DNA from: Haliclystus octoradiatus
Taxonomy: Eukaryota > Cnidaria > Staurozoa > Stauromedusae > Haliclystidae
DNA: 64,000 nt
Assembly: GCA_916610825.1 (NCBI GenBank)
Contig: OU744448.1
Location: forward strand, 20,501,032 to 20,565,031
Reading direction: 5' to 3'
Numbering within the stretch: position 1 is the first letter of the stretch; the number at the start of each line of letters is the position of its first letter. Under the pieces are notes generated by a model. It saw only the letters and a list, made by a program, of their open reading frames with translations, searched no databases and was not told the origin of the DNA. The position numbers and the translations under genes are program-made. Positions 6,341-64,000 of the stretch are shown piece after piece.

Positions 6341-9300
6341 TTAAGATTGTATCATATGTACCAACTGTTTTTGAAATTCAATAGAAGATTCTTTGGTAAG
6401 AATATAGCGTTCACCAGTCTTGGGTATATTTAAATATAGAATTTCACAGGGCTCAATGCAGTCAATTAGAATAAACTCCATATTCTTTGAATCAAAGGAT
6501 ATGTTGATATTATTACCTAGATAGGTTATGCCTTTCATATTAACGTTAGTTGCTTTGGGTGGCAGAATTGGATTAACTTCCAGACGGTTATCTTTGATAC
6601 GTATTCCACCATACCCAAATAAAATACTTTGTAAAAATCCACCTGCACCCGTAATAAAGTTAACAGCTCCACCTTCTGGTGTTTCAGTCCAAACTTGGAA
6701 TGGTTGCCTAACATTTGCATAACCTTTTTTAAAACTCTCAGCTGCTTGTTTAATTTTATTACATTCTAACCAGCCAATAGCAAACATTGATTTTGTCATT
6801 GCTGGACCATCGGGGTCAGTTCTTTCCTCGTAGTATAATAAATCATTGTATCGCGTTGTGGTGTTCATATCAAGCATTAATGGGAAACCAAGTAGAATGA
6901 CATCAGCTTGTTTGACTGTTACGTTTAAATTATAACCATCATATTCAGGGTGGTAATCTAGAACTGTGTCATAGGGGATATACATATGTTCTGCAACATG
7001 ATCCCATTCTGGATTTATATTGCCTTGTAATACTTTGACAAGTTTTGTCGCAAATTTGAGATTTAATTTAGCAATATAATTTGTGTAAACAGAGTTATTG
7101 ATATCATAATGGTATTCATCTGGACCTTGGACATGATTTATAACATATTGCAATTTTGTGCTGCTGTAAGTGACACGGCTTACCCAAAAGTCAGCAATTG
7201 CTGTGACCATTTCTAGTCCAATATATGTGAACCATTCAATATCATGCGAGGTCATCCATAGTTGTTCCAGCGCAAAGCCAATATCTCCAGTTATATGATG
7301 TTCATATTTTGAATATGGGTCGGGAGCAGGACAAACCTCAAAGCCTGAAAAAGAACTCTCCCATGGGAACATAGCACCTGTAAAGTAAAGCAAAATAAAC
7401 ATTAGATACAGATATGACAGAGAACAAAGCGAATGGAAATGTTATCTATGCTATGCAGGATATAGCCTGGCAGCCTGTGTAACAGACCCAATTTATTTAC
7501 GAAAGAATAACGTAGACTCTTGGGTAGACTTGTGTAATACGCTACAGATTTTTGTTCATTCCATCCCGTAATTTAGTATCCAGGGATCTCCCAACAGGAA
7601 GTAGTGTTGTCTCACTTCATTGTTTCTTGTTTCAGTGTAGTCTTCATAGTATCAGGTATGAGATTCTACTCTCATTTTACACGGAAAGTGAGAAAGCCTA
7701 TATTTACAACTCAAGCATGTGGCGGGACCAGTGTCTGATAAAAGCCATCCAGAATCTTACAACAATGTCTATGGGACAGATGCGGATGGGAAAAAACAAC
7801 AAAAGAGTGTATCACACAGACCCTATTCAATTGCGACACAGGCTATGTATCTGCTGATCAGTTGCAGAATAAAATACAATAGAGCTGGATACACCTCGCA
7901 TCATTGGAAGTTTAATTTTCTACTACCCGTTAGTCTAACAACAAAAGATTTTAATACCATCACGATGATGGGATACATGTGTAAGCATCCGAAAAACACA
8001 AGCCCACTCAAATATTGGGACGTGGGGCGAGTATTGTTTGGCTATCGAGAGTCAAGTCAAAGAGAAACATCTCAAGTGTTTGCATCATAGAACCCAAATA
8101 CAAGGCTGACATGCAGTAACCCTTTTTTGAGACAAAAGATAATTTTTGTCGTTTTTGACTGAATGTGAATTCAAAATCTTCATTGATTCAAAATCCTAAA
8201 TCTTTTTGATAATGCTATGAATTGTCTACCTTCATAACCTGGTTTGGTTGTTCCAAATTGTCAGTTAATAGGCTGATAGACCTAACAATGTTTTTGTTAT
8301 TAAACATCATTACTAAGTTTTTTTGGCTTGTGTGATCAAAACACGAGAGTTAGCCAAACATGTCACTAGAACAGCCTTGGAAACTTTCTTGAGTTTTACC
8401 ATAAGACTTTCACAACAAGAAAAAACAAGGACTAAGATTGAAGGTCATCAACCTCCTAATGGCCATATTTGCATGTTCAGTTCATGAACTGAGACCTTCT
8501 GGAAATGTTCTGAGTACTGTACTTTCATATGAAACTTTTTCATTCTGCCAATTCTATCAACCATGTCAAGTACAATGAAATAAATGCCTAAACCACGTCA
8601 AATTTGATAATGAGGCCAGGGCATTTTTAATTCGATGTATTTGTAGCGAACGAAGCAAATACTTGGAATTCCAAAAATATGCAACTGAAAACTCAAAAAA
8701 TATATTCCGTCGAACCAGTGACCTAAGGATATCAGGACTAAAAACTGTTATGTAATAAATGCCATTACCACGTACTCCAAACAAACAAGCTCTCCTGCTT
8801 CAAGAGTTACGCCAAACATATTAAATTCATCATTGTAATTGGCTAGCCTAATATTATGTACAATAACTGTCATATTTGGCTCAATGCTATCTTTTGTAAT
8901 TTTGTATCTTCCTATAATATGTATAATATATGATCTATCTATCTAAGTGTTTATGAACAACTGATCCCTGTTTCACATGGAGTTATCAATGGATGCAGTA
9001 TCAATTAAGTTTCATTTGAAATTCGACAAACATTAAGCATCCTACACATTGCACCTTATTCCGAAATGCATTCAACCTCCCGATAAGCAGATGTGAACCA
9101 ATACTAGTTTCAAGAAATTAATTACGACAAAATGTTGCTCAATTTCAAGTATTTTTCCAACATTTATGGAACATGTGGTCTAGTTATTTCTACTCAACTT
9201 TTGAATAACTTTAAATTGCATAATTAGCAGTTCAACGCATTGATTTGAACTATAAACACATTCATTTTAGGCTATCCTGATATTCTGTTAAGAAGATTCA

Positions 9301-12300
9301 AATCTATACATTTGGTAATAAAAGATATTAAGAAAATCATTACATGACCTATGCTATCTTTTAAACATCAATTATCTTGCTATTCACCACAAGACATGTA
9401 ATATGGTTTACCTTTATAGCCATAAGCTTTGGCTCTTGATTTGGCAGATTCTAATCTGTTTCGACGATACACAAGTGCAGACTTTGCTAACTTAGGATGT
9501 AACAACAGCAAATTGGGATACATCCATGTCTCTTGGTCCCAGAAAGTGTGGCCAAGATAGGCATTACTGCTAAGCCCTCCTGGACTCAGACCATATGGCC
9601 AATCATCTCGAATTGAGCTACAAAATAAAATACACTATTACATAAACTGCTGATAGAATAGAATATAAATGGCTTAAATTACTCTTTTATCAGAGTCGCT
9701 TGGATTATTTAAACTTTTGCAATCCAGACGTTGATTTTAGTGGTAAATAGCTCTGCCATACCTGAAAGCAAATTTCAAATAGCTGTAAATATTTATTAAA
9801 ACACATTTAATTGTTTCAGTATATTCACCTTGACTTTAACGTTACGCTAAATGGGGGTATTTTCATGGATTACCACTGTATGTAGGCATAGTTGTTTAAT
9901 TTATTTTGATCGATATCTTAACATATAAAAGAGAGATGCTTCAAACACATGTTTGCTAATAGCTCTCCGCATTCTCAATAAAAAGTTTGAAAGTAGTATT
10001 GTTCTAATCATTGTGTTTTGAAGTATATCTTTATTTGGCTTGCTGTTTTATGTTTGTTTTGTAATCTTCGTATCAAAACAAAATGTATCTTTTCATTTAG
10101 CTTTAGTTTTTTCCGACTTCACGTCATAATTGCTTGGCTTGCGAGGGATCTCCCAATGGGTCTCCGCAATCCAACTCCACATTAAACTCAGCAACACTGG
10201 TAGCCTATTGCTAGTAAGCAATATATTACAAACCTTATGATATAATAATGACTGCCATAGATTGCTTTTGCAAGTGCATTGTCACCAAATACATCAATGC
10301 TACCACGATTCCAAATTTGTTGCCATGCAGCTGCATGCCTTTTCCACAATTCGCTTGGGTTCTTTTTATAAATATAAAGGGCATCAATCATATTGCTCCT
10401 AGCTTCTGCTTCTGGGTTGGCAGTTTCCAAGTCACAACTAATAGATGTTGCGAATATCTTCTGGATTTGTGAATTTTGAGCTACAGTCATCTTTGATGTG
10501 TTATGTTTAGAATTCCAAATCATAGCAATTTTGATATGTTTAACAGAAGGTCGTTCAGTAATCCTTGTTTTGCCAGACATTAACTGGAAGTCTAAGAAAA
10601 ATAAGGAATATCATTATAGCCTACACTTCATAAAATACATCATTTTGGTGACTCGATTATATGGCCAAACAAATTCAGATGATGATAGGTTAACATCACA
10701 TATTAGCCAGTCTAAAGCTTTCCTGATTATAATTCATCTTCATATAAACAATGTTAAGCCTATATGGTCAACTTTCACTTTTGATTGTACATCAAATGAT
10801 CTATGCCATTGATTGTTATGATTGCCTTTATCTATATATTGTCCTTATGCTTTGTTCCTACGATGTTCTGTACATGTCACATTCTTCATCCTGCTGATAA
10901 CGCCTTCAGATCAACTACACAAATAATTTGGTTTAAGACGCCGTTCTAGGCATTCCATGGATGAATTCACACCTAATGGAGTCATTCCAAATGGGTTAGA
11001 AGGTATTTGGAACGCCTTAACACTATCCAATCACTAAAGGCGCTCTCAATCTGTTCTGAAGTCGATCTTACATTTTTGATTAGAGCGTAATAGGATCGGC
11101 ACATGCACCGAATGGCGTACGAACCAGACCATATCTAACAACATCCAGACAAAAAATCAAAACAAAAGATATTTCTAATTTTTATCCAAAACTGTGAAAA
11201 TCGAAAACAAACAACATTTATAAGCGCATGAAGCATTCATAGTGTTGTATCCCATAAATTCAGGTCAGTTGCACTCTCTAGATAAAGAATAATCAACATT
11301 TACAAAATCAAGCTTAAATAAAGTAAGTTATTAAAATTGTATGAATAGCTAATGAGGTTCATGAAAATCTTGTGGGGTTTGTGGACTTCCTCCTGTTAAA
11401 TAGTTCTTCACCCTACGTAAATGGCTCACTTTGAATAAAACACTTCATGAACTGTTCAAAAAACGTGAGATGGAAATTTTAAAATGATCAATAGGACCAG
11501 TCTTCTTGCGAATTTTTCATGGATTTTAACTTCTTCAAAAACATTGTCAAACTGTACATTCCAAATAGCACACATGAACAGTTCATCAAAATTCAACAGT
11601 TCCTCAAAATTTAACTGGCTGCCTGTTTCCGTAAGCCCTTCCATAAAACGTTATGAAAAACATCCCAAAAACATCTTTTCAACTCAGTTAAACTTTTAGC
11701 TTTGACAGAAACTCACACACTTGTATAAGTGACATTTTGAAAAATAGATTTAAAGCAATTTTGTTTTGAATAATCTTTCAAGATTCAAGTTACATACATG
11801 ATTAAATACATACATTTCTAATTGGGGATAGTTATACCAAAGACGATAGATTCAATAACACATTTGTGCTTGAGAAAACAACTAATGAAAAGTTGATAAG
11901 GTCCGTCAACATTTTATGAAGTTTATAAAAATCCAACAGTTCTTTTTGCAGGGGTATACTACCACAAAGTAACTTATTGAACAATTGCTTCTACTAAAGT
12001 CTCACATTTAACTGCTTTGTATTTTTCATTACGCCACACAGATTCAACATGGCATTCATTAGATAAAACACCTACTCACCACCTTCAGTCTTTTTCATTT
12101 GAAAATTAACATCTTCGCTTTCATCACCAAGAAAATTTCCAACCGTAAAAACCAAATCTGTTATATTTCCATTCTCTATATCCAGTTCAGATATCAATAG
12201 ATTTTCATATGTTTGATGAGCATAAACCTTCTGTACTATACTCCAATCTTTACTTTTATCGTTAATATAATGATAAAATGTCCCTGTTTCTGTATCAAGT

Positions 12301-12758
12301 GAATATGAATGATTCAAGTCATTATTTTCTAATACATCAATGTTCGTTATTAAAGATGAAGGAATCCTTGCTCTATGACTATTTAAATTGTTACCATTAA
12401 ATACACCAGATAAATATATTGTATCACTGTATATCCTAGTGCCAATGAAGCCGTTAGCAACTGATGGGTATAGCTCTTGATTTTCTGGAAGTTTATTACT
12501 GGTAAAAACCCTATTACTATTTTGTCCATCCAGCGGTGCTATTGGAGGTGATACGTGTTTGAATGATGAATGATCTCTATTCCATAAAACGTTTACAAGC
12601 TGCACATTGAACAACATCTTATGAAATTGGACAGATCTCTTGCTTGTCAGCAGAGTAATAAAGCCGAGAACAATTATAACACCAACCCAGATGTATAGAT
12701 GTTTCGAAACTGTATTGATCATTTTTGCCATGTCTTTATTATGAAATGAGATTTTCAA
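6341..12758 (-). CDS. PGGHG: Protein-glucosylgalactosylhydroxylysine glucosidase (GH65 family), complete
   Basis: Four exons: 12758-12080, 10591-10234, 9617-9412 and 7377-6341. All have GT-AG junctions and consistent phases (1, 2, 1), giving 759 residues against about 737 in human. The family removes glucose from the Glc-Gal-hydroxylysine unit of collagen. Conserved blocks include YGLSPGG, GHTFWDQETWMYP, FEVCPAP, the GH65 signature GPDEYH and WTETPEGGAVNF. The three carboxylates shown to be essential in the human enzyme (Asp301, Glu430, Glu574) fall at Asp373, Glu502 and Glu646 here, a constant offset of 72. Odd: residues about 20-42 are a hydrophobic segment (LYIWVGVIIVLGF) after a short basic head, so the protein looks like a type II membrane protein with a luminal or extracellular catalytic domain. 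Alternative starts at the next two Met codons would still include the anchor. Confidence 0.95.
7552..8090 (+). other. Unclassified overlapping open frames inside PGGHG intron 3
   Basis: Two overlapping frames (7552-7857 and 7719-8090; 101 and 123 codons) lie antisense in the PGGHG intron, in sequence less AT-rich than its surroundings. I recognise no domain. A worn copy of the foldback family (CAGACCCAATTTATTT) sits just upstream at 7466-7500. It may be a decayed mobile-element or processed-gene fragment. The frames are not convincing as a gene. Confidence 0.2.
11380..11960. repeat. Dispersed repeat rich in TTCATGAAC words, PGGHG intron 1
   Basis: It contains many direct and inverted copies of short words such as TTCATGAACTGTTC and CATGAACAGTTCAT, and ends near TTTTTGCAGGGGTATAC. 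The stretch 5580-6030 shows the same vocabulary and a similar end (TATTTGCAGGGATC), so the two look like diverged members of one family. Boundaries are approximate. Confidence 0.4.
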
Positions 12759-13199
12759 TGTATTTTATCTTGATAATAGGAAGATATGCCAACATTGATA
12801 AAAATTAAAATTTAAATAATTTTATCGGCACGTCTGCACTAAATTTACAGTGTTACAAAAGTAGCGTGATGAATTGGTAAAATGTTACATTTGAAGTAAT
12901 TTTAGGGGTAATTACTTACTTTGTCAAGCAACGAGAATTTTCTGCGATAAAGTAATTAAAGTTACTTTACAATTTATTCACAAAAGATTTATTGTTTTGT
13001 TACTATCAGCTTGGTAAAAAAAATATTCAGAGCAATAATAAATTAGGACTGTCATTGTAAAGTCACAAATGATTTGAAATACCTGTTGTTTGTGTGAGTT
13101 GGTTATTGTTATTGGAAATGTTTTGATTATGAAAATATATTATGAACAGAAAGATTTTTGATCTAAAAGATTCCATTGTTTACATAGAATTTGTTTGTC

Positions 13200-36584: not shown

Positions 36585-45326
<8,742 letters not shown>

Positions 45327-45331
<5 letters not shown>

Positions 45332-45408
45332 CTTGGCGCGATGATAGAACGATGCTGGGGGGAACTGGTCACGTGACGTTATGGGCGCCATGTCACAAGG
45401 CAAGATGG
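45327..45408. promoter_or_regulatory. YY1 start region with three YY1-like sites and an E-box/CRE
   Basis: GCCATCTTGG (45327-45336), a near-ideal YY1 recognition sequence, overlaps the chosen YY1 start codon. GCGCCATGT (45385-45393) and CAAGATGG (45401-45408) are further CCAT-core matches. CACGTGACGT (45370-45379) combines an E-box and a CRE half-site. Autoregulation is inferred; mammalian YY1 also has clustered YY1 sites near its start. Confidence 0.5.
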
Positions 45409-46053
45409 TTCCAATCTATCTGCTCAGTTCAACCACTCTTCACCTGCCAGAAAAATGGAACTAATGCATATCTCGCTTCTGAAAATTTATTTTGGTGATT
45501 TATTTCGTCGATTTACCACATCCAAAATAAATTGGTAAATTTTTGACAAGGAAACAATTATTGGCATTTTGCTGCCTCTACTTATGGGTGCTGCTTGTAA
45601 CAGCTGCCCAATAAAACAATCTTATCGGTCCAGTATAATTTCATGGGCGTTGGTCGACCGTCTAAGTACAGGGAGTATATGCTGTTTCAAAATTGGCATC
45701 GGTAAACTAAGGCAGCTTTCGACGGGGCTTTCGAAGATGAAAATATATATACTTATGATTGGGAAATAATCATTTGCATGTAATACTAATACTAGCTGTA
45801 CTCGGCACGTTACCCCAGCAGGTTTTTGAAATGTCGCCTGAATAAAATAGAGATCGGGATAGATATAGAGTGGGTCACAATAGGAGACTTAATCAATATT
45901 GAAAAACTATGAGGAATTGCTGCATAATTCTCCTGGTACACATCATCTCCAATACATGATAGTCGACATAGTATATATAGATCATGTTTTTATCTTCTAA
46001 AGATCGCAAACAAGCACCTAAACTCAAATTAAAAATACAATCAAAAATCTCAG

Positions 46054-47320: not shown

Positions 47321-47750
47321 AATGAATTTTAGTACTGTACATCCAATCAATCCTCTATTTATTTTCTTTTTTGTTGTAATAATATGATATCAAATGAAAT
47401 GTTCTATGTTCCACACACATAAGAGACTCTTTGAAAGTCTAACTTCCGCGTTTCTTGACTTTCTTCTAAATGCTGAGATAAGCGATCGGATCGAAGATCT
47501 GCAACCAGTGATCCGTGTCCTAAGAGACAATTGATTATATAGTCCTGTTCGTGGCCCATATCGGAGTAAATACTGCGAATTACGGAAAATTCAAAACAAT
47601 ATTTGGCTAAAAAGAAGTAAAAGTATATTCTATATAGTTTATTATCGGTATATCATCTCAAATTTATTCGCATGGTTTGTTTATGTAACTGCATGGAACT
47701 ATTGTCGATACGAATGCAATGCGCAAGAAGAAACTTAGCCAAGTAGTCGC

Positions 47751-49458
47751 ATGAACTCCAATCAAAAATTAATGGCATTTTTTGTAATATATTTATCATT
47801 CTTATTAACTGTCGCATTATTATTTCATGTAGTTGAATCTGATGTGGAATTTGAAAATAAGAACGATTTCTTAAAAGCAAGAAAGACATTTTTAGCCGAA
47901 CATGATTGTTTATCACCAAAAGATATGGATGAACTTATCAGATTTGTAAATGATGCGGTATTATATCATGGGGTCTCAGTCAGAGCTAATAAAACATCTG
48001 TACCCAATTGGTCATTTGGAGGATCTCTCTTGTTCACAGTATCATTGGTCACAACAATAGGTATGCTCTACACGCCCGGGGGCTACTTCGATATTTTTTA
48101 GACAGGGGTGTGCCATTATCAAAAATTGAGGAAACCCCTAAAATTTCACAGCAAAAGAGGATGGACACCCCCAAAAGTTCATGTTTTAATGAGTAGAGCA
48201 AAGGAAAGTTCTAACAATTTAAAAAATCTCCAAATTGACACCATAGAATTTCACAAAAATTTGGAGAAAGGCACCCCTTAAAATGGCACGTCCCCGTATT
48301 TCCAATGTCCCCCGGGTCTACACGAGTATATATTACTCCAGGGTATACTGTACGGCACTTGTTTAGAAGAATCAGATATCTCAGTTCGTAAAATAATGTT
48401 GACACTAATTCTTCCCTACCAGCGCCTGCGCATGAACTAACAGTTGAATAAAACAATCGACGGAAACATAGTGATGGAAAGCAGATTTCGATGCGCAATA
48501 AAATACATTAAACCATTCGTAGAGGTAGAATTATCAAAATGTTGACTTTTCTTAATTTGTAATGTAAAACTCAAAATAAATAACTCTCGAACTTTGAATT
48601 AATCCTTTTTAAATGCGAGGCATTACTAAAACGAGGATATGTTGTTCTTCAGTATGCTACAATATAGGTCAAAACAAAGCCATCAGCCAGCGGTTAGTTT
48701 CTAACCACCAAAATATCTGTATGTCATCATAATTATGTTGTCTTTCTCTCATAGGATTTGGTGATGTTTATCCATCATCGAAAGAATCTCAATTATTTGC
48801 AATGTTCATAGTTATTGTTGGAATTCCAATGACTGCAGTACTGTTATCGGCAATATCAGAACGTTGGCTTAATTTAATAGACAAAACTGGTTTACTGCAA
48901 ATGCCTATAGCAGGAGAAACATGGGATTTCCTTGACGTCATCTCTCGTCTTTGGCAAATTATGATAATTGTATCCATGGTGGCACTTTTAGTTATTTGTG
49001 GACCGGCAGTATTATTTTGCTACACTGAACAATGGACATTGTTTGAGGGTATGTATTTTTCATTAATGACTTTAACAACTGTTGGATTGGGTGACATCTC
49101 AATTGGAGACAGCGTTGATTGGTTAAATAATCCAAACAGAAGCTTGTATAAAGTGTTTGGAGCAATTTATTGCATCGTGGGGTTAACTTTTATTGCGCTT
49201 GTATTGGAGTTGACAAGTCGTTTACCAAACGCAACCCTTGGTATTTTATTCAGATCACGAAGACGAAGGATAATAGAACGAACAGTTAGATCTCCACCAT
49301 CAGATTCTACTAATGTGGAACGTCTCAGTAAATCTCGGTTATGTCCATGCTGCCAAGAACAGCTACTTTCAAATGTTGAAGACATTCTTAATAATAGGAA
49401 AGAGGACACGGCAGAGATTAATGAAGAAAAGAAAGATAATAGAAGAAGCAATCACTAA
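47751..49458 (+). CDS. Two-pore-domain potassium channel, TWIK-like (K2P), complete
   Basis: Two exons, 47751-48060 and 48755-49458, joined in phase 1 inside the first selectivity filter (TTIG|FGD), giving 337 residues. An in-frame stop lies at 47736-47738, just upstream of the ATG. Order: M1 (residues about 8-28), extracellular cap, pore 1 TTIGFGD, M2, M3, pore 2 TTVGLGD, M4, then an Arg-rich cytoplasmic tail with a CPCC motif. The cap phrase FLAEHDCLS and later YHGVSV resemble KCNK1 (TWIK-1); its Cys matches the cap cysteine that links TWIK-1 dimers. Pore 1 has Ile where TWIK-1 has the unusual Thr118, so ordinary K+ selectivity is expected. K2P channels set resting potential as dimers in the plasma membrane. 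AATAAA at 49734-49739 may be its poly(A) signal. Confidence 0.93.
48070..48320. repeat. CCCGGGGG-bounded repeat in the K2P intron
   Basis: It begins CCCGGGGGCTACTTCGATA and ends with the inverted GTCCCCCGGGTCTAC. The interior phrases GACAGGGGTGTGCCATTATC and GGAAACCCCTAAAATTTCAC have weaker inverted counterparts (AGGCACCCCTTAAAATGGCA). This is an intronic inverted-end repeat, not coding. Confidence 0.55.
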
Positions 49459-50236: not shown

Positions 50237-53200
50237 TCATCCAACAAACTTTGTTTCATCTTCTGGTAAAACGACCAGGCATAACCTTTGACACAAGAAA
50301 GTGAATGAATCTAAAATAATTGAAAGAAGAATAAATGACTATCGGTAAAATAGAACTAGTGTAATCTAGCCATGAAATAGCTAATGTTAAAATAGACTTG
50401 TAATCTAACCATGAAGCAGCTAATGCTTTTTAAAGAAGTTAGAAGTCCGCCAGAGTCAAAAAGAACATATCTCCAGGGTTTGATAAAATGGGGGTATTAT
50501 GTCTTATACAGTAGAACGTGATTACAAATCTCATTCTTAATTAATCCATTCCCAAATTATTAATTAGTGATCAGAGTAGTGGTCATCATTTTTGTGGTTC
50601 ATGTCCCTTCATAAAAACAACTCACCAACTAATCGATAGAAGGCATCAGGAATAATCTTGCTGACGACAAATAGATAGTAGAAAGGTAATCCAGCCAAGA
50701 TGATTACCAAAGCAATAACAGAACCAACGGGTTGTTCCAAGATAGGTGTGACAATCAAAAAGATCGACACCAATAACATGAAGATTGGAATCACAATGAA
50801 AACCTATAGGGATAACGTTGAAGAATATTATCCAACTATGAAGGGGATACACGAAAAAAAACAAAAATAAAATACTAATCGCAACCACTGCACCATTTTA
50901 AGAATCTAATTGGTTGAAAAGAATCTCGAAACAGGACCAAATATATGACCTAATTTTAGAAATTGAGTGTAACCAAAAATAAAGCTAGTCTTACATAATT
51001 GGTCTGATCGAGACAGTTCTATAAGGAATAAAACAGATTTTGGAAAGTAATCTATAAAATAGTTTGAAATATGAATTTTAATATATTTTGAAAAGGTCTC
51101 CGATGAAGAGCGTTAATGAGATTTCGGCTAATTGACTTTCACATATTGACTTTCATGACTTATATTATGATCTATAAAAATAGCAATGCCATTTTCTTCA
51201 AAATATTGGAAAAACCTACTTTCAATGCAAGGCTATGGGTAAAAACGTCCATGATCGAGATGAACTTAGTGTTTAATTTATGAGTTGAAAAACATTCTTC
51301 CCAATCTCGCATATTAACCTCAGCTATGATTTCCGTACTACTATGAAATATTCGAATGGCGAACAACAAAAACTTCAAAGTAGCTGTTTTTTATATCCAC
51401 GACAGTCATGCTAATGCTGCTTAAAGGCATCTCATAGCAGTAATGTTTCAATATAAGACTTGCCTTATAAGGACGTTCCAAATTTGGTTGACTGAATCTT
51501 AGATACAATAAAACAGCAAAACATGCCCCATAGAACAGCCAAGATGCAAAACTAAAGAAATCCACCAGTGTTGAGAATTCACTTGCATCAGGAATTAACA
51601 TAATGCATGAAATAAAAGACTAAAATGAAACAAAATAACTGTTTTCAATATATCATATTGGATGAAAATCATCCCTGCGCGGCTAATATTAATATAACTG
51701 AAAGATAAAAACAATCATATTCGAATAGATAAATCAAGAAGTACATAGAGCGTTAGCGGTCACCTGTATTTAATGGTAACTATTGTGTTGGTTTTTAATG
51801 ATAATCTAAAGGAAAATTATCCATAAACTTACGGTGAAAACCAGAGAGGGCAATGGCGTGAATTTAGTTGAATGGATCATAGCCAACAGCGAAGGCATGT
51901 GACCTTCACGAGCAGCCGCATATACAAGTCTGAAATAGAACAAAATAAAAAGACAAATAAATAACAAGTAATAATATTTAAAATTATGTAGAAACTTGTG
52001 AAATGATGTCTGTAGTATTACCTTCCGTTACTGAATGCTAAACCATTGACTGCACCAAATGTTGATGCAGCAACTAGAATAGGAATAATCCAGTTCACAG
52101 GCCCAAGATAAGCATCGCCGACACTCTGCAATACGATAAAACATTGTATACCATTAGAAATATGCAGTACATATGATTGAAAGCTAGAGGGTTATATCCG
52201 CGTTATAGAGAGCGGGCACAATTGACTTGTTTATTTCTCAATTCTCACTTCTGTGTTATTCCAATCTTGATGGAAATGCTGCTTTTCGATCATGAAAATG
52301 AGGCAGTAAAAAGAAAGTCAACGGGCACAAGCGAAATCTCACAACATAATCGTTCAATTTCATATTAGATGAGGTATAAACCATGAAGAAAATTTCGAGT
52401 AAAAGGTCTTTGAAAAATCAGGACACTTGAATTACATAAAGGCGCTTAAAGTCTTCATTGATTGCATGCAGCTGGAAGTTCTGGAACATCCCGATTCTCA
52501 AGCATTTAGTATGTAGGCCTACCGTATAGGCTACTGTGCTGTGTGTTGTGTGACTGTATGTATACCGTATACGGCGATAAACATAGGATTTCGAATCGTA
52601 CGGCAATAAACATTACGTCGTGTGAGGATGAGGATAACGTATGTTCAATCGAAGAGCACAATTTCATTCAAAAGAGCAATCGAAAAGAATCGCTCGATAA
52701 ATGTTTGTACATGAAATAGGTGATAACGGAATGATATGTTTTGATGGGAAATATGGTGCTAATTGAAAATATTTCAAGACTCTAATAAAGCCTTATAGTT
52801 ATAGGGTTTCTCATACTCTAATAGTAACTAATACAGTAGTATGTCATGCATATAATCTATCTAGCTTATTTACCATTCCTTTGTAACTTGCAATACGATG
52901 ATGAATGATGATGATAACTTACTAACCAAAGCAACAGCAGACGATGAGAGAATTCCATCTTTGCCAAGAACAGCAATATATGCAACGTTTACAAGTATAT
53001 AACACACAGTGACTAAGATCATTGATATTGTGATTGACAATGGTAGATCCCTGCAATAAATATACAAATATTAAGCCTAGTTCCACTAGATAAAACTGGC
53101 AACGGGAATTTGTTTATTTCATTTATATAGCCTATACCTTGATGGATTTCTCATTTCTTCAGTTACATAATTCAAAGTATTCCTGATAAAATGATAAAAC

Positions 53201-55624
53201 AAAATGATTTGATGACAAATATACAATTAACGGGAAAATAATAGTAGAGGGAAATCATAAATACAGTTCCAGTTTCATTTTCACGATTTAATGCATAATA
53301 ATTCACGGCAATTTATTGAAGTATAATACACAATTACACATAACAGTAGTAACAGAGTTATAGAATCTTGGACCTATTGAAGGACAAGGTAGGCTAGGGC
53401 TTTTGGGTAAGGCCCGTGTTTGATGATTCCAAAGGCGGGTTGAAGGGCAAAGGCATATAGCCTACACAATCTTTAAATACCAAGCTAAAACACTTTGCTC
53501 GGGAAAATTGCGGGACAACAGTTTTAAGTATGAGTACATTTTGAATAGCCAATTTCTATACTCACCAGCCATCATATGCCCATAACCCGACATAAAAAGC
53601 CAGACCAATTTTACCAACATCTAAGGTACTGCCTTCAAATGAGTTATCAAAGTATTGAGTGTTGCCTAAGGAGCAAACAAAGATGACATCAGTGCAGTTC
53701 TGACAGGGTCCTCCAAATCTGGAAATCTGGTTTGTAGCCAAACTCACAGACGCTCTGTCAAAATGTAAACTTGGTAAAACAGGACTACTGTTTGACCAAG
53801 TTTTCATTTTGACAGTGAGTCTGCAAGCAGGCTGCCTGGTTTGCGGTAGGCTAGGAAAATTCAAAAGGAAATGGGGAAATTCTGGATGTCAAGTTACAAT
53901 CATTAAATTGCATATAAAAATAGATTTTCAAAGTCAACCTTTGAAAAAGGCAAATTTTACTTTTTATGTAATTAAAACATCCCAAACACTTGTCAATATT
54001 AATCAAAATATTGTGTCATCTCTAAAATTAAGGAGTTAAGGAGCAAACAAAGATGACATCAATGTAGTTATAGCCATGCAGTAGGACCAATAAAATTGCT
54101 TTTATAAAAACCCTTTTACCTTTGCAAAGCTCAATGAGTCCAATCACAACTAATATTGCAACACAAACCAATTTGGCATAAGTGAAAATATCTTGAACGC
54201 GAACTGCCAACTTGACACTGATACAGTTGATGAGGGTGATAACAGCTATATGTATAAAGAAAGAATATAAAATAATTTATAAGCAGAATGCATATCAAAA
54301 CATCATTCATAGGCATTTATATAACAAAACTTTTAAATTTAATTTAAGAAGCAAATATGAGCTACATGACAGTATAGAACATCAGTCTAAATCATCACGC
54401 CCTATGGGCTCAAATTATGATAGGCAACTTTATATGTTTGTTATTGGATCAATGAATGCCTTTGTTATGTCTCAGTATCAGGGTCCAACAAAAGTGGGCA
54501 TCCGGGGATCCTAGATTCTTGAAGGCTAGAGAAAATTCAGAAGAAATTGATAATTTTTTAATTATAGCACAAACCTAAACAAAAAATTCAGAAGATAATG
54601 TTGAAAATGTTCCCAAAATTCCAGAAGGAATTATTTTTGTCGGACACTGCACAGCGTTACGCCTATCAATCTAGACATGTGCCACATTCCCTTGTACTTT
54701 ACTTAACATAGTTGCCGCTTCGTATAGGCATGAGTGCAGTGAAATAGTGGGCCTTGTGGAGCTAGGCTACTATCAATCAGTAAGACATTATGCGACAAGC
54801 AATATTACAGCACATTACAAATTACAGAAACTATTCAGGGTAGATTTTATTAATGAAATAGGAACAATGATATCTGTCAACACATCAGGATAAAAAGTCC
54901 TTGTCCTTTTGATCTATTTAAGGTCGAAAGTAGCATTGCCATACAAATTAGGGGCAATGCATCAAGCATAATGCGGGCGCTGGGGCACAGGATAATGGCC
55001 ATGCACTATATGAAAATTTAATTTTAATCAAAATACCATAAATATGGATAGATTCTATTAAAACTTGAATATAGATTACAGGTATATAAAAATAAAGTAT
55101 TCATGTAGGCCTAGCTAATTCGATTGTTACACTTTGAGCTGTCCTTCTAAAGTAGTCACTACAGTATTAGCTCATATCCAATTCAGCTGTTATACTACTA
55201 ATCCTATTTGCCAAATAATGTTAAATCCGATTTGAGAATTAGTGAGAATTGATTGTGTTTAGTTTGCATATAGATAGCAATCATGACACCGCATACAACA
55301 CTGATACATCGTATCAAACTACTCAATGAGGAAGCAATAATAATAGCCTACAGATTCAAAATCAAATAACCAGTCTATAGATTTCAGTGTTACATTTGAT
55401 CTGCTTACTACAATATGCAATTACTAATATATGCCTATAAACTGCATCTGTAGCAAAATTGTGAGTTTTGTAAAGTGTAGGCAAGCAAAGAAGTTGTTTT
55501 ATCTGAGAACGTTTATAATATAGCAAGTTGTTTGACATAATGATTTATTGAATTATCGCACACATTTCGAAAGAATATCATTTCACGTGGAAGTAGGTCT
55601 CTAGAAGAAACAATACTTTGTTTG

Positions 55625-55694
<70 letters not shown>

Positions 55695-56505
55695 AATTGT
55701 GTGGGCAAAACATCAATTTGAGTGCTCAATGCTAAAAGCAGAGCAATATAAATAGTAGATCAAAGATCACGAGTTTATTCCGTTACTCTGAGTTTCCCGT
55801 AAAGACGCTCTTCAGACGGTTTTATTAAATTAATAAAACATTTCCAAATGGCATGGCACGGTATACTACTATACGTTGAACAGGTTGACCTCCCCAGAGC
55901 TATCGATATACATTTTATATCGATGGCTCTGGACCTCCCAGCCCAACACGGCATATGATGACTACGATGGTCAAAATCAAATGGTCAAATCTCTTTATTA
56001 AACTATACTGTAAATACTAACCGATGCATAGAAAAGCCAAAAGTTTAACAAGGGCAACGGGTGGCTGACAATCGACATAGAAAGGTTTGCAAACATATTC
56101 AGCAAATATCAACGCAATGATAGCCCCAGCAGAAGGACGAGTAACAAGAGCTGATGTCCATGAAAATAAAAAGGCGACCAATGGACCAAATGCTTCATAT
56201 AAATACGAATATTCAGCACCCGATTTCTGTATAGTTGTTCCAAGTTCTCCGTAGCAGAGTGCCCCACATAGACCAAATAATCCACAACAAAGCCATATCA
56301 CTAAAGATAAACCAATTGACTGAGTATATCCTAAAATGCCAGTCGGCGAAACAAATATTCCAGACCCGATAATACTGCCCACAATTAAACCAATGCCGTT
56401 TATCAAAGTGACATTCTTCTTCAAAACAACAGCAGATGGGTTTGATTCTGTTTGGTTCAACTCATCACTATTTCCATCTTTTAGCGCAACGTTTTCACCA
56501 TCCAT
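50237..56505 (-). CDS. SLC7A9-like (b0,+AT) amino-acid transporter light chain, isoform with first exon 1a
   Basis: Ten exons: 56505-56022 (1a), 54245-54120, 53665-53566, 53182-53138, 53050-52927, 52125-52022, 51929-51833, 51619-51464, 50803-50626 and 50310-50237, in matching phases, giving 495 residues. The product is a 12-helix APC-fold exchanger that pairs with an SLC3 heavy chain. Visible: the TM1 motif GSGIFVSP; the cysteine in [10 protein letters not shown], in the position of the heavy-chain disulfide; [30 protein letters not shown] with Trp232 and Asp235, the pair typical of b0,+AT (LAT1 has Phe and Gly there); [16 protein letters not shown]; and ASTFGAVNG. The tail is [11 protein letters not shown]. 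The intron after exon 8 (51464) has a GC donor (AAG|GCAAGT). Substrates (cationic and neutral amino acids) are inferred. Two more first exons lie upstream. Confidence 0.93.
53667..54067 (-). repeat. 31-base duplication of the exon 3 splice-acceptor region
   Basis: The sequence TAAGGAGCAAACAAAGATGACATC (read in two parts, 53667-53697) recurs at 54037-54067. On the minus strand it forms the pyrimidine-rich TTTGCTCCTTA before SLC7 exon 3. In the real site it is followed by G, giving the acceptor AG. In the upstream copy it is followed by A, so the AG is missing and that copy should be inert. Confidence 0.6.
53742..53832. mobile_element. Palindromic MITE in SLC7 intron 2
   Basis: Inverted arms ACTCACAGACGCTCTGTC / GACAGTGAGTCTG and AAATGTAAACTTGG / CCAAGTTTTCATTTT surround a short centre. 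The right end GTGAGTCTGCAAGCAGGC matches the end of the palindrome at 19191-19302. Confidence 0.6.
54478..54652. mobile_element. Member of the CAGGGTCC...GGACACTG hAT-like MITE family
   Basis: It starts CAGGGTCCAACAAAAGTGG and ends TTTTTGTCGGACACTG. The interior shares CCTAGATTCTTGAAGG and AAAATTCAGAAGAAATTGATA with the 36888-37070 element. The flanking octamers (CTCAGTAT and CACAGCGT) agree at only 5 of 8 positions. It lies between SLC7 exons 1a and 2. Confidence 0.6.
55627..55690. repeat. (TA)n microsatellite
   Basis: About 32 uninterrupted TA units. It abuts the half copy of the palindromic repeat that starts AAAGTAATTGTGTGGGC at 55690. Confidence 0.95.
55690..55828. mobile_element. Half copy of the palindromic repeat seen at 41493-41723
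   Basis: It shares AAAGTAATTGT, GGCAAAACATCAATTTGAG, TGCTCAATGCT and GATCAAAGATCACGAGTTTA with the YY1-intron copy in the same order, but lacks the second arm. It lies in the intron after exon 1a. A separate small hairpin (CCAGAGCTATCGATATA / TATATCGATGGCTCTGG) follows at 55893-55932. Confidence 0.7.
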
Positions 56506-58337
56506 CGTATTTAATAGGTGTGAAAGCTGCTATATTTCTACGAAACACGTGTTCTATAGACCAGAGTGTTTAATGATTCGGTCTGGAAGGTTTTTAACAA
56601 AATAATATTGCATCAGAAAAATGGAGGTTCTACTACGATGAAGGCGGGAAAAATCCCAATGAAAACATGGGATCTCTTTTCATTGGCTGAAAATTTTGTA
56701 ATTGTTATTCATTGGTTTAGAAAACAATAAAAATGAACATGTGCGTTGTCAAACCAATGCCAACCATAATCTACTTGCACGTGTTCTTTGAAAAGGGAAA
56801 CCAGATGTCACTACATTGTAACAACAGCATAAAAAGATGATTTTTCACAAGGCACAACAACTACTATTGCTTTCACTATACTGAGTTACTGTCAGTGTCT
56901 ATACTATATAGGATCGTGTATAAAAGAATGAAAGGCGATACATCGTATTACTATCGTTTTGCTAGTAAATCTTTTAAGTAAAAGAAATAATTCTTCATTA
57001 TGAAAATAAAAACGTTTGTTTTTCAACAAGAACAAGTGGAGATTAGTTGATGATCTTAATTTTTTTAATTTGAGGCTGCAATGATCCTTATGACATTATA
57101 CAATCTAATCTGAGAGAAAACCTTATGAGATAGAAGCAGCTTCCTAATAACTTCCATATGATCCGGTATCCGTGTCCATATTAAACCTCGTAACCAGATT
57201 ATTCCGATTACTCAATCGGCTAATGCTGTGTAGGCCTACTCATGGCCTACTGTATAAGAGTGTCGTTTGAGTTCATATAGTACATGACGGAGTTCTTTGA
57301 TCTTGTCATGTTATTTAAATAACGCATAACCTTGTAGGTTTATCAATAGATGACTTGAGTTTTAAATATGACATTAATGAGTATACGATTGCGAGTACGG
57401 TGGTCATACAAAATATCGTGCTTAGGCCTACAATCCGTCAAGCATCAATTTTGCCACCGCATTATGCCCTCATGGACAATCTTACGCGTAATGTTCCGGG
57501 TCATATTGTACATCATAAACACATTTTCAATCAGAAGAGATACGACCGATCGGTAATTGAGTTTGAGAACAATTTTGTTATTTGTAAAGGAATCAGTCGT
57601 AGTAGTCTACCGTGTAGCACGTTTTAATTGGCTAGGTCTGTATTCGATCATGGATTAAATATTATATTAGAACTATGATTAGATACATGATGTCGTTAAT
57701 GTTTAATATACAGCGTACTGTACAGTATATATAAATGTTACAAAACGCCTGTAGTTGTTGAAACCTGATTTCGCTAAGATAGAGTATAAAATCTATCAAA
57801 ACAATCTAAATAAATATAGGCTAATCGTGGCATCTTGAAAAGCTAGAAATAATTATAGAGATAAACGTTTGCGGACATCGTAATAAATTTCGAACAAAGT
57901 CAAAGTGAATATTTGTATCAAGCATTCGAAGTTTTAAACAATGACACAGACGTAGCGCGTATTGATAAGGCGTAAATAGTGTTAATCCTATGTACGGGTA
58001 ACTAATACGGGTATTGTCATCGAGAATAATAAGTTCTGTTCACGTTATGGTACATTGCTTAAATCTTCACAAATCATTTAGAGTTTTGTTGAAAATTTAT
58101 TACCCTAATACAATACTTTCATACGATCTGTTCAGCAGCACTGGAATGGAAAGCACATAAAAGCATTATGATTATTAGCATGATATTCTACTTCTTAGAT
58201 ATTTACATTTTACATGAGCTACAGCATTAGTTGAGTTTTTTTGATATGATGCAATAATCAGGCAAATTTTATATCATTTCAGGCAATTTGTACTATTTAA
58301 TTTTCATTTCGAAATGCTGTAACCGGTAGAAACTTAC

Positions 58338-58926
58338 CAATGCATAACACAGCCATTAATTTCAACGCATAAACAGGCGGTTCGCAATTCTGATAAAATG
58401 GTTTCAAAGCATATTCACCAAATATTAAACTAATGATAGCAATAGCAGATGGTTTGATTACTAAAGTGGATGTCCATGAAAATAAAAAGGCGGGAACATC
58501 ACCGGCTCCAAATTTCAAATAAGCATATTCGCCACCTGACTTCTTTACCATCGTACCAAGTTCAGCATAACATAATGATCCGCCATATGCAAACATACCA
58601 CATGCTACCCATATGAGCATTGATAAACCAACGGAATTTACTCCTTTAAGTATTCCTACTGGTGATACAAATATACCCGAACCAATGATGCTACCTACTA
58701 TTAAACCAATCCCATTGATGACACTAATACTCTTTTTTAACTTGACGCCATCGTCTTCTTCTAAACTTTCTGGTTTGTATTGAAAATCATCCTTTTCTTG
58801 AGAAACCATTTTCGTTGTTGCTCCTTCATCCGCCATTCGAATAAATGTATTATCGCGCTTCTTGCAGTTTATCGATTTTACACATTTGCTCAGGTAACAC
58901 CCCTCCACTAGCCGCCTTTTTGACAC
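58338..58926 (-). CDS. Alternative first exon 1b of the SLC7A9-like transporter
   Basis: An intact paralogue of exon 1a, ending in phase 1 at a consensus donor (TTG|GTAAGT) after VLCI, exactly where 1a and 1c end. It would splice in frame to the exon at 54245, giving 530 residues from the first Met (58926) or 500 from a second Met at 58836 (ATGGCGG), which is nearer the length of the others. It encodes an acidic cytosolic N-terminus, [18 protein letters not shown] (TM1), the ELGTMVKKSGGEY loop, and the cysteine in FYQNCEPP. It differs from 1a and 1c in TM2 (VACGMFAYGGS) and around the TM2-TM3 loop. No matching downstream exons were seen between it and exon 1a. It could alternatively be a stranded duplicate exon, but its open frame and donor argue otherwise. 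Confidence 0.75.
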
Positions 58927-61407
58927 ATCAAATCATAGATCAAATAATTGAGGCGACATAGACTTTTTATCCTTTGTTATTTCCGTTCAGAAATTCAGTG
59001 GTGCTCATCAGAGGTTTACAGAGACAAATAAAATACAAAAGGAAAGTTAGCATATCTTCCCATGCATCGAAACATTGTCTTCTACATAGTCCGCTAATCA
59101 AGGAACTGTTATGGCCTTTTACTTTGACATAGTTAATGGTGCAAAGTTATTTTTATGCACAGCGTGCTTCTATATTAACGATTTCGATCCCCCTTGATCT
59201 TATCATGATCTTATTTAAACCTTTAATGAATGATTTACACTCAGACTGAATGTAAATCATATAGTCGAGGACATTATATATAATACTCAGATTGAAGCAT
59301 TTGGCTCCAAGCACGTATCCGAAAATGTAAGAAGAAATAGATTTCAACTCCGACTCCGGCTCCAACATTATTCCAGACAAACTCCTGTAAAAAGAGTAGA
59401 AAGTCCAAAAACGGATAAATTCATAAACCTAAAATACATATAAATTAACATCATGTAATCTGAAATACATATGCAATCCTACCTCTATGTTGAAATATTT
59501 AGACAATTCCCAACTTTTCAATGCTTATTAAGATTATGTTAAGAAATGATCAAGCCTGCACTCTAGACTCCAACTCCAATTTGTGCTCCTGGATTGGCAA
59601 ATATTCACTCAGTCTGGCTCCTACACCTCTGACGCTTTCATATACAAGTCATGTGCAGTGTGTCTTTAATTAGCGTCAAAAAGGAGTTGCGGAGATGTAG
59701 CCGAAGGAGGTTTTTAAGGTTGAATTAAATAGAGCATAATTTGTGGGGCTGTATGCTGCTGGCAGTGCTGGGTAAAGAAATGTTGTTGACATAATTGTCA
59801 TACAGTATTTCTTTTTGATTTTAAATATTTATTATTATCTTGCTGTTCAATGTTTTCAAATTATTCTCATTTCTTTTGATATATATAATAAGCTTTAAAA
59901 GCCTTGTCGGAAAATTTATTCACGTGAAGATTGCGTTCACAGAGGATTTCATAATGATTTAAGGCCCTTTGATAACTGATTAATTTCTAGCTTTCTATCA
60001 AAGCTTTTTTCGGATTTTTAACGTAGTTCTCTGAAACTATAAATCAACCATAAATCCACCGTGTGTCATCGGAGCTATTTTTCTTACTGTAATGTATACT
60101 TTCTTAATGCCATATATACTTTTCTCCCATTTTCTAATCCGTTCAGATATCTTTTGTAACTAGCAAGTCTAGTAAATGATTAAATCTATGTTCAACGTAG
60201 CTTTATTGGTACAATCCATGAATTGTGAATTTCCAGTTTCCTGAATGTCGTGAAACGTGAGTTTCCAAAATATAATATAGGAAGTTCTACATGTAGGCTA
60301 TAGCCTTCTTCGTGTGATACATCATTGATCATGAATTGTAGAAACTGCGGTGTATGGAGTCAGAATTTTGAGATTCCGAATCCGAAAAAAGTCTTATGGA
60401 AGCATTTGACTCCGAGTCCGGCTCCGAAAATCTAAGAAATATAGACTCCAACCCTGACTCCGGCTCCAAAATATTTCAGACAAACTCCTGTAAATTCTGT
60501 TAAAGTCCGAAAATGGATAAATATCTCAACCCAAAATTAAGCAAACATAGGGAGGTACAACTAATAGTTCATAGTCCTTCATCCGGGTAAATAAAAATAT
60601 CAAACATTTGACCTTATTACCTACCTAACTACTTCTTGTTTGAAGTGATTCTTTGGAATTATGGCGAATCAAAAGCAACCTAATTCTACAATATTTATTT
60701 AATGAAAATTATATTTATTTAATAATCGAAGATTTACAATAAGAAGAATTTGGTAAGTTCAATAAAAATATATATTCGATGTGGGGTAACTCCTTAAAGT
60801 TACAACCATGGTTACAACTGACAAATGTATCTAAATATCAGCAAATACCAATTTATCAATCGACTAATTCCATGGTGGAACAGCTTACCAGAAAGTGTTG
60901 TTACCTCAAAAACATTATTTTCTAGTCAAATCAAAATTGAACACTGTTGATTTAAATGCCTTATGCAAAGTTAACTAACAATCTATATGGTCTACATTCA
61001 CATGTTTGTTATGCTTTCTTTGTGTATTTAAAGGATACATGAAAGTGGAAATTTTACTTTCCTATATAATCCCGTCAGTATTTTTGACAAATAAACAACA
61101 AAGTACGACAACATTCGAGAAGTGTCAGAGGTATCGATTCTAATAAAATAATATATATTATGTTGATACTTCTCTGAATATGCATCTTGTATATAACAAA
61201 ATACATAGAATAACTAGTCAGTACTATGTTCATGCACTCTCTACACCGCCTACATAAGGTATTAAATTAAACATCTCTAACAAACATTAAATTTATAATC
61301 TCATCATCTCTGTAATAGCCAGGTAATAGCTGATGACAGACAATCGGATATGAAAATGATGATGATCGGTTGACAGTACGTACCTCTAATTAAATAACAA
61401 AACTTAC

Positions 61408-61939
61408 CTATACATAAAAATGCCAATAGCTTCACAACATGGGCTGGTGGTTCACAATCGCTATAAAATGGTTTGCAAACATATTCGGCAAATATCAAGC
61501 TAATAATAGCGGCAGCAGAAGGCTTAATGACAAGTGTTGATGTCCACGAGTATAAGAATGCTGCAACAGGGCCACAAGCAAAATACAAATAATTGTACTC
61601 TCCTCCAGATTTCTTTATACTTGTCCCTAATTCTGCATAACATATTGCTCCACCTAATGCCAAAAGGCCACAACCAAGCCATACAACAAGACTTAAGCCA
61701 ATTGAATCCACTTTTGATAGAATACCCGTTGGCGAAACGAATATTCCAGAACCGATAATTGAGCCAACAATAAAACCAATCCCGTTTATGACACTTATAT
61801 TTTGCTTCAACTCAATTTGTTCTGGTTTGTTCGATGGTGAAGTATCATCGTTATTTGTATTTAACTTTACTTCTTCAAAATCATCTTTTAACTTATCTTT
61901 AAATTTCCGTTCGTTGAGCGAAATTGAAGCTTGTGCCAT
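61408..61939 (-). CDS. Alternative first exon 1c of the SLC7A9-like transporter
   Basis: The third intact paralogue of the N-terminal module. It starts MAQASISLNERKF and ends in phase 1 at ATAG|GTAAGT after FLCI. Spliced to the common exons it would give 511 residues. It encodes [50 protein letters not shown] and the heavy-chain cysteine in FYSDCEPP. It is closer to 1a at its end ([18 protein letters not shown]) and closer to 1b in the SWTSTLVIKPSA stretch. It is the most distal first exon in the window; no further copy was seen up to 64000. Confidence 0.75.
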
Positions 61940-64000
61940 TTCTAATTTGCTGTTTCTTCACAAATCCTTCTCCTTCAAGGAAATTATGAATTTGTAAATG
62001 ACATGATTGAGATAAATGTTTCACTAAATGCTACAAAAGTACGTGTTTGAAATCCAACTACATTTTCACAGTAGGTGTTACTTGACCCTTTACAAATCGA
62101 AACAAAATAAACATAACAATGTATCCGTGATGAATGTACATATTAAAATATGTTAATTATATTTTTCGTTTTTGCCTGCATCACTATGCAACATGCATAA
62201 TATTCACTGATATTATATATTCTGTGCTCAAACAATGTCCTCGAATTGATACATTTTATATTTTTATGATAACAGATAACAAATAATGTATAGACACTAC
62301 GGTCACAGAGTCATTTTGTGTTTCCGGAAGAAACTCTCACATGTCGATTTTCAGTATTCATGCAATCAAACAAATACTTTGCCAGCTATGTACTTTCTCA
62401 TTGTTTGATCACAAGATATCATTCAGTCGGAAAACCCGTCGATCTTTATGGTTTACGTGGTCGGGTTATATGGTAAGTGGTAACAGTGTCATGGAATGCC
62501 GTATACACGGGGCCTGTTACGCCTGTTACTCTTCATCATCAAATTAATTATATTCAATATGATCAGTTGAAATCCGTGAATGCCTTTTAACGAATACTCT
62601 TACTCAGGAAAGTCTTTCAGAGTATTGAATATGTCTAAGTAATTAATTCAATTTTAACAATAATTAATTTGTATATCCGTAAAATCGTAAACTTATGATC
62701 TGCCGTTCTACTAAGTTTCCGATTTACAAATACTGTAGTCTGCGAGCAGGCAAGCTATATGTAGTACCGAATTACTATTTAAAAAGAGCTATGCGTGCCG
62801 GTGCTATCGCCTATACCGAATGTGCAGCTACTACTCCTCGGTTTCTAGACGGGTATCCTTTCGCGCAGAGGAGAGGAATATGGATACCTTAGCAATATAT
62901 AAATACTGTATTCAGATATATCAGCTCAGGTGCGGCGTACTGGATCAATGTGACCATAATTTACTAGCCATCTCACACCGCAATATCAATCTACGTCTAT
63001 GATTATAGACATTTCAAGTTAGTTATTATGTGAGTAATAGTAATGTGTGTATATTTATTTGTTGCCCTGTAGGCTGTATATACAATTCATATAACGAAGA
63101 TGATGATCCTGGGACGCTTACAAATCAAGCCAACGACAGAAAAAGCTTATTATAGGATAATTTGATTGAAGATTGAATGTTTGATGTAGTGATGTAATTG
63201 GCCTAATTGGGGAAAGTCATCATCATCATCATCATTTATTCAGAAACCTTTTAAGTTATACATAACTTTTTTTCAAAGTACTGATTTAGTTAGTCAATAA
63301 AGGGCAGCAGAATATCTATCTAAATATAACATTCCTTATAAATCATATAATATTATTTGATTAGTTGCATAACATATGTGCATACTTCTGCCCCTACACA
63401 AAATCTTAGATATCTATAATCATAATGCAAGATTACGTCATATTAGCTCAAAATAATATTCACTTTACGCATTCAAACAAAACTGATTTCACCAAAGTTA
63501 TAAGTAATTACAGAACTAAATATATCTAACTTATATCATAGTCAGTAGAATATCTAGTGACTATGCTTATATCTAATATGGCGTGTAATTATATTAAGTA
63601 TTAATCCCTTCAAATTTAGTTGTTCTTAAATTGTAATTCGGACATATCCCGTTTTTAGAACTCATTTATTTGCTTGCAGACATAAATATCTAAATCAGCG
63701 ATACTTGAGTTGAAAAATCAATTTCTCGATAGGAAAGTCAAAACCTTTTTACAGCGGCATATTATAGTCCCTTGGGGATCATTTAAACGATAAGAAATAA
63801 TGCGTTCCCATGCTAGGCTGTGATTTGCATAGAAATTCCTTATTAAACAATAGATAATTTCTCCTCACGTAAAGGCTTCGGCATAAGCGGTAAATAGTAG
63901 AGCCAATCAAGCGACACTTCCCGTTCTATACAAATTTCACAAACGGTACAGAATGCCATTGTTATCTCCTAATTTGCAATGAACTTTCGAAAAAGATGCT
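61940..64000. other. 5' flank of the SLC7 locus without recognised genes
   Basis: No supported exon was found. The stretch 62703-62752 is a half copy of the 19191-19302 palindrome (TTCTACTAAGTTTCCGATT, then TCTGCGAGCAGGC). A short CATCAT run lies at 63219-63233. Promoter elements for exon 1c are expected here but none is clear. Confidence 0.4.

Follow-up and report, generated by a model that had tools for sequence, protein, structure and literature searches.

What allows one transporter gene to carry three beginnings? The question is raised by a locus on the minus strand of Haliclystus octoradiatus chromosome 3 (OU744448.1, contig C4 in the genome searches), within a window of 64 kb that was analysed as a whole and whose positions serve as coordinates throughout. 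Our analysis indicates that the locus is very probably one SLC7-type gene with three tandem first coding exons, hereafter labelled 1a, 1b and 1c, and a single shared remainder. A preliminary description of this DNA had likened the layout to those of UGT1A and the protocadherins, an apt comparison given the tandem first exons, the one splice phase and the single constant region.

Three first exons and a shared body

Reading along the minus strand, the first exons are 1c (61408..61939, 177 codons plus 1 nt, 532 nt), 1b (58338..58836, 166 codons plus 1 nt, 499 nt) and 1a (56022..56505, 161 codons plus 1 nt, 484 nt). These are three intact paralogues, and their ends at 56022, 58338 and 61408 were correctly placed in the preliminary description, as were the common codon end and the fit to one acceptor. 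Each exon has its own ATG in the same orientation, preceded by an in-frame stop; all three have lengths of 1 mod 3 and finish at the same terminal codon in phase 1. Joined to the acceptor of exon 2 at 54245, each gives an open frame to a common stop at 50237. The donors of 1b and 1c read G/GTAAGT (the slash marks the exon end) and that of 1a, which is weaker, reads G/GTTAGT, a form reused at exon 5 of the same gene. On the minus strand of the window, GT or GC sites that score at least as high as the donor make up 0.75% for 1a, 0.11% for 1b and 0.07% for 1c, with a matrix built from the eight other donors of the gene. The interval between 1a and 1b is 1832 nt, in line with the 1.8 kb first reported, and that between 1b and 1c is 2571 nt rather than 2.4 kb.

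The shared body begins with exon 2 (54120..54245), the sole exon 2 found for 1a, 1b and 1c, which encodes the rest of transmembrane helix (TM) 4 and TM5. Exon 3 (53566..53665) runs from NSFEG to LWAYDGW and holds TM6, with the equivalents of human b0,+AT Trp230 and Asp233; the expected TM6 tryptophan and aspartate thus lie in the shared part. Exon 4 (53138..53182) opens with the Asn236 equivalent after a split tryptophan codon. Exon 5 (52927..53050), exon 6 (52022..52125), exon 7 (51833..51929), exon 8 (51464..51619), exon 9 (50626..50803) and the coding part of exon 10 (50237..50310) follow, all on the minus strand, with the stop TGA at 50239-50237.

Several small features accompany this layout. 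The intron after exon 8 is of the GC-AG type, with the donor AAG/GCAAGT at 51464 on the minus strand. Intron 2 contains two 33-nt copies (94%), at 53667-53699 and 54037-54069, of the stretch just upstream of the exon 3 acceptor. A family of 37-nt repeats resembling GGAGTCGGAGTC, at 62-81% identity, occupies 59337-59373, 60399-60435, 60441-60477 and 55270-55306, and three of its copies sit between 1c and 1b.

The searches point to a single shared body. By tblastn against the window, exons 2-10 give one match each at E < 0.001, with weaker scattered matches beginning at E 0.097, and the mutual similarity of 1a, 1b and 1c lies far above chance (E 1e-54 to 7e-67). Fifteen exon queries, taken from the window gene and from a paralogue on contig C7, were run against the gaps at 54246-56021, 56506-58337, 58837-61407 and 61940-64000. 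No exon 2-10 remnant was detectable there, the best minus-strand scores being 13.1-18.9 bits; for each query the real gaps were matched by 4 or more of the 50 shuffled gap sets, and the gene body itself, as the positive control, scores 39.7-107 bits. The earlier inspection by eye, which had seen no exon 2 or exon 3 copies between the first exons, agrees with this search.

The genome gives the same picture. Whole-genome searches scored the best candidates only, so that match counts are lower bounds. The exon-1c protein matches at least 10 places, the three close ones (67, 68 and 100%) all at this locus; the remainder include at least two on C7 (46-48%), one on C5 (38%) and four on C10 (26-34%). 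Exons 2-10 match at least 28 places, 8 at the locus with 59-91% identity and 20 elsewhere with 20-56%. No further first exon or other SLC7 exon was found, at E up to 1, in the 20 kb upstream beyond the window, and no SLC7 exon in the 10 kb past its other end. To the reach of these searches, the array consists of three members and one body.

Contig C7 provides an internal comparison. It carries two nearly full-length tandem SLC7 genes (14286919-14279130 and 14267918-14263156). Near 14255 kb there is also a remnant of exons 8-9, in which exon 8 contains a stop. Exons 1-9 were detected in both genes, exon 9 of the second being partial, and exon 10 in neither; both keep AYDGW and NNLNYVTEE. Since this pair retains copies of the later exons, whole-gene duplication is recognisable in this family and genome, whereas the window locus repeats exon 1 only. 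The exon boundaries displayed for the C7 genes match those of the window gene, the start of exon 3 lying outside coverage, and the large first exon that ends in TM4 in phase 1 is therefore an older structure, not a peculiarity of the window gene.

Selection on the three first exons

Pairs among 1a, 1b and 1c share 64-73% of amino acids over a core of 136 residues and 61-69% of nucleotides over 151 codons, and second codon positions are far more alike (0.76-0.82) than third positions (0.42-0.52). Nonsynonymous and synonymous divergences (dN/dS) by the Nei–Gojobori method (NG86) are 0.37/2.0 for 1a-1b, 0.255/1.22 for 1a-1c and 0.274/2.79 for 1b-1c; maximum-likelihood dS is saturated, for which reason we quote NG86 and a branch model. 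That model, for which the two C7 exons served as outgroup, covers the 136 core codons without the unalignable N-terminal tails and gives rough dN/dS ratios (omega) of 0.050 for 1a, 0.052 for 1b and 0.051 for 1c, and 0.16 for the other branches. Forcing omega to 1 costs 24.3, 20.3 and 5.5 in twice the log-likelihood (p 8e-7, 7e-6 and 0.019), so neutrality is rejected for each exon.

Neutral simulation points the same way. With one copy diverging from 1c to a nucleotide identity of 0.59-0.69 (400 runs per setting), mean amino-acid identity falls to 0.32-0.45 and a mean of 5-6 stops accumulates, as opposed to the 0.64-0.73 and zero stops observed; an unbroken frame occurs in at most 0.5% of simulated runs. 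Judged by these substitution patterns, all three first exons are under purifying selection and have been kept separately over a long time.

In a tree that leaves out the long-branched C5 gene, 1a, 1b and 1c group together with support 93/98 against human SLC7A9, human SLC7A5, an xCT consensus and the C7 pair, and they share residues of their own at a site that reads VGTIIG in the three reference chains. Their branching order is not settled: codon likelihood favours 1a with 1c by 0.4 log units, and the protein tree places 1b with 1c at 80/84. The repeat finder returned no family linking the flanks of the three exons. This and the lack of a common upstream 8-mer are expected at the age of the array.

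The swapped unit of the transporter

Among solved SLC7 structures, human b0,+AT is the best match to the full isoform (504 bits, E 4e-150), followed by an engineered xCT consensus (483 bits) and LAT1 (462). Exon 1b alone scores 158 bits with the xCT consensus, 156 with LAT1 and 155 with b0,+AT. The Pfam family AA_permease_2 exceeds its cut-off. The NCBIfam L-type model TIGR00911, which leads the 12 models listed by a wide margin, reaches 573 bits, below its cut-off of 701.8, and the gene is therefore termed SLC7 light-chain-like without assignment to that model. Trees fail to resolve the window gene, the C7 pair and human SLC7A9 relative to each other. By similarity, the gene is a b0,+AT (SLC7A9)-like light chain, as the preliminary description had proposed.

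The swapped unit, as shown by exon 1c, comprises an N-terminal tail of about 41 residues, TM1-TM3, extracellular loop 2 (EL2) and the start of TM4. When aligned to human b0,+AT, the three exons agree with each other at 79 of 136 positions, and the differences are unevenly spread. Within approximate helix limits, variable positions number 0/6 in the unwound TM1 segment, 13/21 in TM2, 10/28 in TM3, 8/17 in EL2 and 3/9 at the start of TM4. The contrast drawn earlier between an invariant GSGIF in TM1 and a variable TM2, loops and tail thus holds. The N-terminal tails are of unequal lengths and have little similarity. The equivalent of Cys144 in EL2, the heavy-chain cysteine (numbered from the alignment), is present in all three first exons, again as anticipated.

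For ovine b0,+AT, PMC9110406 describes the substrate backbone held at the unwound segments of TM1 and TM6, the determination of cationic versus neutral selectivity by TM6 Asp233 and Asn236, the disulfide link between EL2 and the heavy chain, and the packing of TM4 on the heavy-chain helix. In the Haliclystus gene, the equivalents of Asp233 and Asn236 lie in shared exons 3-4 (AYDGWN), and GSGIF is kept. All isoforms share the substrate-backbone site in TM1, the cysteine for the heavy chain and the charged residues of TM6, and are therefore expected to handle b0,+-type substrates. Differences among them would be expected in trafficking or regulation that depends on the tail, and in the effects of TM2, TM3 and EL2 on rate or affinity.

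A choice among heavy-chain partners, one of the effects first suggested for the array, fares less well. A search with the SLC3A2 N-terminal domain matches one place in the genome, C4:19518259, and the alpha-amylase domain carried by SLC3 chains was found once, in the same open frame. By eye, that frame shows a membrane helix, then a cysteine, then the amylase-like domain. This SLC3-like gene (C4:19518259-19518939), which shares a chromosome with the transporter at a distance of about 1.0 Mb, is the only SLC3-like heavy-chain gene found by searches at exon level, which may miss diverged chains. With one detectable heavy chain and an invariant disulfide cysteine, partner choice is unlikely to be the purpose of the array and is the weakest of its predicted effects.

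Choice of the first exon and known parallels

The layout is best explained, with considerable confidence on our part, by alternative first exons spliced to one body, separate promoters being the likeliest means of choice. The array would go back to a tandem triplication of the first coding exon, most likely in the cnidarian lineage. Transcription would start upstream of 1a, 1b or 1c, and splicing would connect the donor of the chosen exon with the one exon 2 at 54245. Any intervening first exons would be skipped; these would lack a clear 5′ acceptor of their own, most evidently in the case of 1b. Over the 300 nt upstream of 1b no AG scores above 0.12 (rank 200 of 490), so that 1b is hardly an internal exon. 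The predicted products have 495, 500 and 511 residues, with a different cytosolic N-terminal tail, TM1-TM3, EL2 and TM4 start and the same remainder. The animal can thus probably make three versions of one transporter, which would be set apart mainly by the place and time of their production, by tail-mediated trafficking and by kinetic effects of TM2, TM3 and EL2; a difference in expression site, regulation through the tail and modest kinetic tuning may all be involved. A broader proposal, to which we give somewhat less than even credence, holds that the three N-terminal thirds are an ancient set, selected by promoters, for a single LeuT-fold exchanger. Each cell type would combine the same b0,+ core and one SLC3 partner with a different TM1-TM3, so that kinetics and trafficking are tuned, in an array that is perhaps Medusozoa-wide.

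Several points weigh against the main explanation, alternative first exons on one body. The array is known here from genome sequence. Synonymous sites are saturated and the fitted lengths of the 1a and 1b branches are at their upper bound, which leaves the omega values rough, and the selection test is weakest for 1c (p 0.019). The three-exon clade falls under the starred level of the tree tool and is not resolved once the C5 gene is included. Higher scores than that of the acceptor at 54245 are reached by 9 of the 490 AGs, including sites between 1c and 1b, and the assignment of the splice partner therefore follows coding fit and not score. Acceptor-like AGs stand 24 nt upstream of the 1a ATG (56529, score 6.3, rank 22/490) and 33 nt upstream of the 1c ATG (61972, score 7.3, rank 13/490). 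Finally, the 600 nt upstream of each of the three exons have no 8-mer in common and no consistent TATA position (3 common 7-mers, 4.1 expected).

The last two points would suit selection by splicing instead of promoters, with 1a, 1b and 1c as mutually exclusive exons behind a common 5′ untranslated exon or a trans-spliced leader. Spliced-leader trans-splicing occurs in some hydrozoans. The AGs near 1a and 1c are within the range of the real acceptors of the gene (1.2-9.3, leave-one-out), so that these two exons could follow a common untranslated exon or a spliced leader; the scores rest on a matrix built on 9 acceptors. The poor AG near 1b speaks against such a leader, as do the separate ATG and upstream in-frame stop of every first exon, and we regard it as improbable. 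Still less probable is a history in which whole tandem genes lost their exons 2-10 and left two of the exons, 1b together with 1c or 1a, behind as orphans, with only one exon in use. The tandem genes and decayed exon 8-9 piece on C7 give this idea a precedent in the same family and genome. The three exons are, however, intact at saturated synonymous divergence, with no stop where neutral decay would leave several, and neither gap holds a detectable remnant of the later exons. Neutrality is rejected on every terminal branch, although an exon that fell out of use very recently would not be recognised from sequence. On the gap search and the selection tests, tandem duplication of the whole gene followed by loss of the bodies was rejected. 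Hardly credible is an assembly artefact, with a mis-join or uncollapsed haplotypes as the source of the extra exons. PMC9975415 describes an assembly scaffolded with Hi-C, from which curation removed 33 haplotypic duplications; against this, the copies are far from allelic at their nucleotide identity, and the window is without any N.

Alternative first exons on one body have precedents outside the SLC7 family. At the level of sequence, the Haliclystus gene has the features of variable-first-exon clusters of the PCDH, UGT1, UGT2A and GCNT2 type. For mammalian GCNT2 (IGnT), PMC1885805 describes three tandem first exons of high similarity, each under a promoter of its own, and two constant exons. 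The likeness lies in similar tandem first exons with one common downstream set; the difference is that GCNT2 encodes a glycosyltransferase with one N-terminal membrane segment, whereas the Haliclystus gene, known from its sequence, encodes a polytopic transporter on nine constant exons. The same paper gives UGT2A two variable exons at 64% nucleotide identity and five constant exons, next to UGT2B as independent whole genes (PMC1885805), a contrast mirrored by the array on C4 and the whole-gene pair on C7. In the UGTs, the swapped half binds the acceptor substrate (PMC1885805), whereas the part swapped in Haliclystus retains an invariant substrate-backbone motif. The Ugt1, Gcnt2 and Ugt2a organisations are termed vertebrate-specific in that text (PMC1885805).

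Within the SLC7 family, the b0,+AT/SLC7A9 structures (6li9, 6yup, 7nf6) share with the Haliclystus gene the Asp233, Asn236, GSGIF and Cys144 equivalents and differ from it in its three alternative N-terminal thirds. We know of no such array in human SLC7A9. SLC7A2 is likewise a gene of the SLC7 superfamily with splice variants, CAT-2A and CAT-2B, which differ in 42 residues and have different affinity and expression, as PMC12839458 relates; it encodes a cationic transporter of the CAT branch, by contrast, and has no first-exon array. Searches of an open-access library turned up no description of an SLC7 first-exon array. A selected three-member array on a polytopic cnidarian transporter would carry the layout into another phylum and another class of protein. 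It would also amount to a natural series of chimaeras, in which TM1-TM3 of a heteromeric exchanger vary and the rest is constant, useful for asking what TM1-TM3 contribute to rate, affinity and trafficking.

Neighbouring sequence

Scans of the window with Rfam (at the gathering threshold) and for tRNAs were empty. Elsewhere in the genome, the mitochondrial COX1 has AGR codons where other animals have Arg and ATA codons at Ile positions, which fits a cnidarian-type code; a tunicate origin, considered because the genome is AT-rich, was set aside. Tail to tail with the transporter gene, 47739-49455 on the plus strand carries ion channel exons (Ion_trans_2, two frames), probably of a two-pore-domain potassium channel. 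On the minus strand, an open frame at 44882-45415 is without a Pfam match; its end resembles the YY1 family. An exon at 6344-7441 on the minus strand has glycosyl hydrolase family 65 domains and may share a gene with the open frame at 12075-12764 on the same strand, which has no Pfam match. The palindrome TAGGCCTA occurs 15 times in the 64 kb, against about 0.6 expected from base composition by hand arithmetic.

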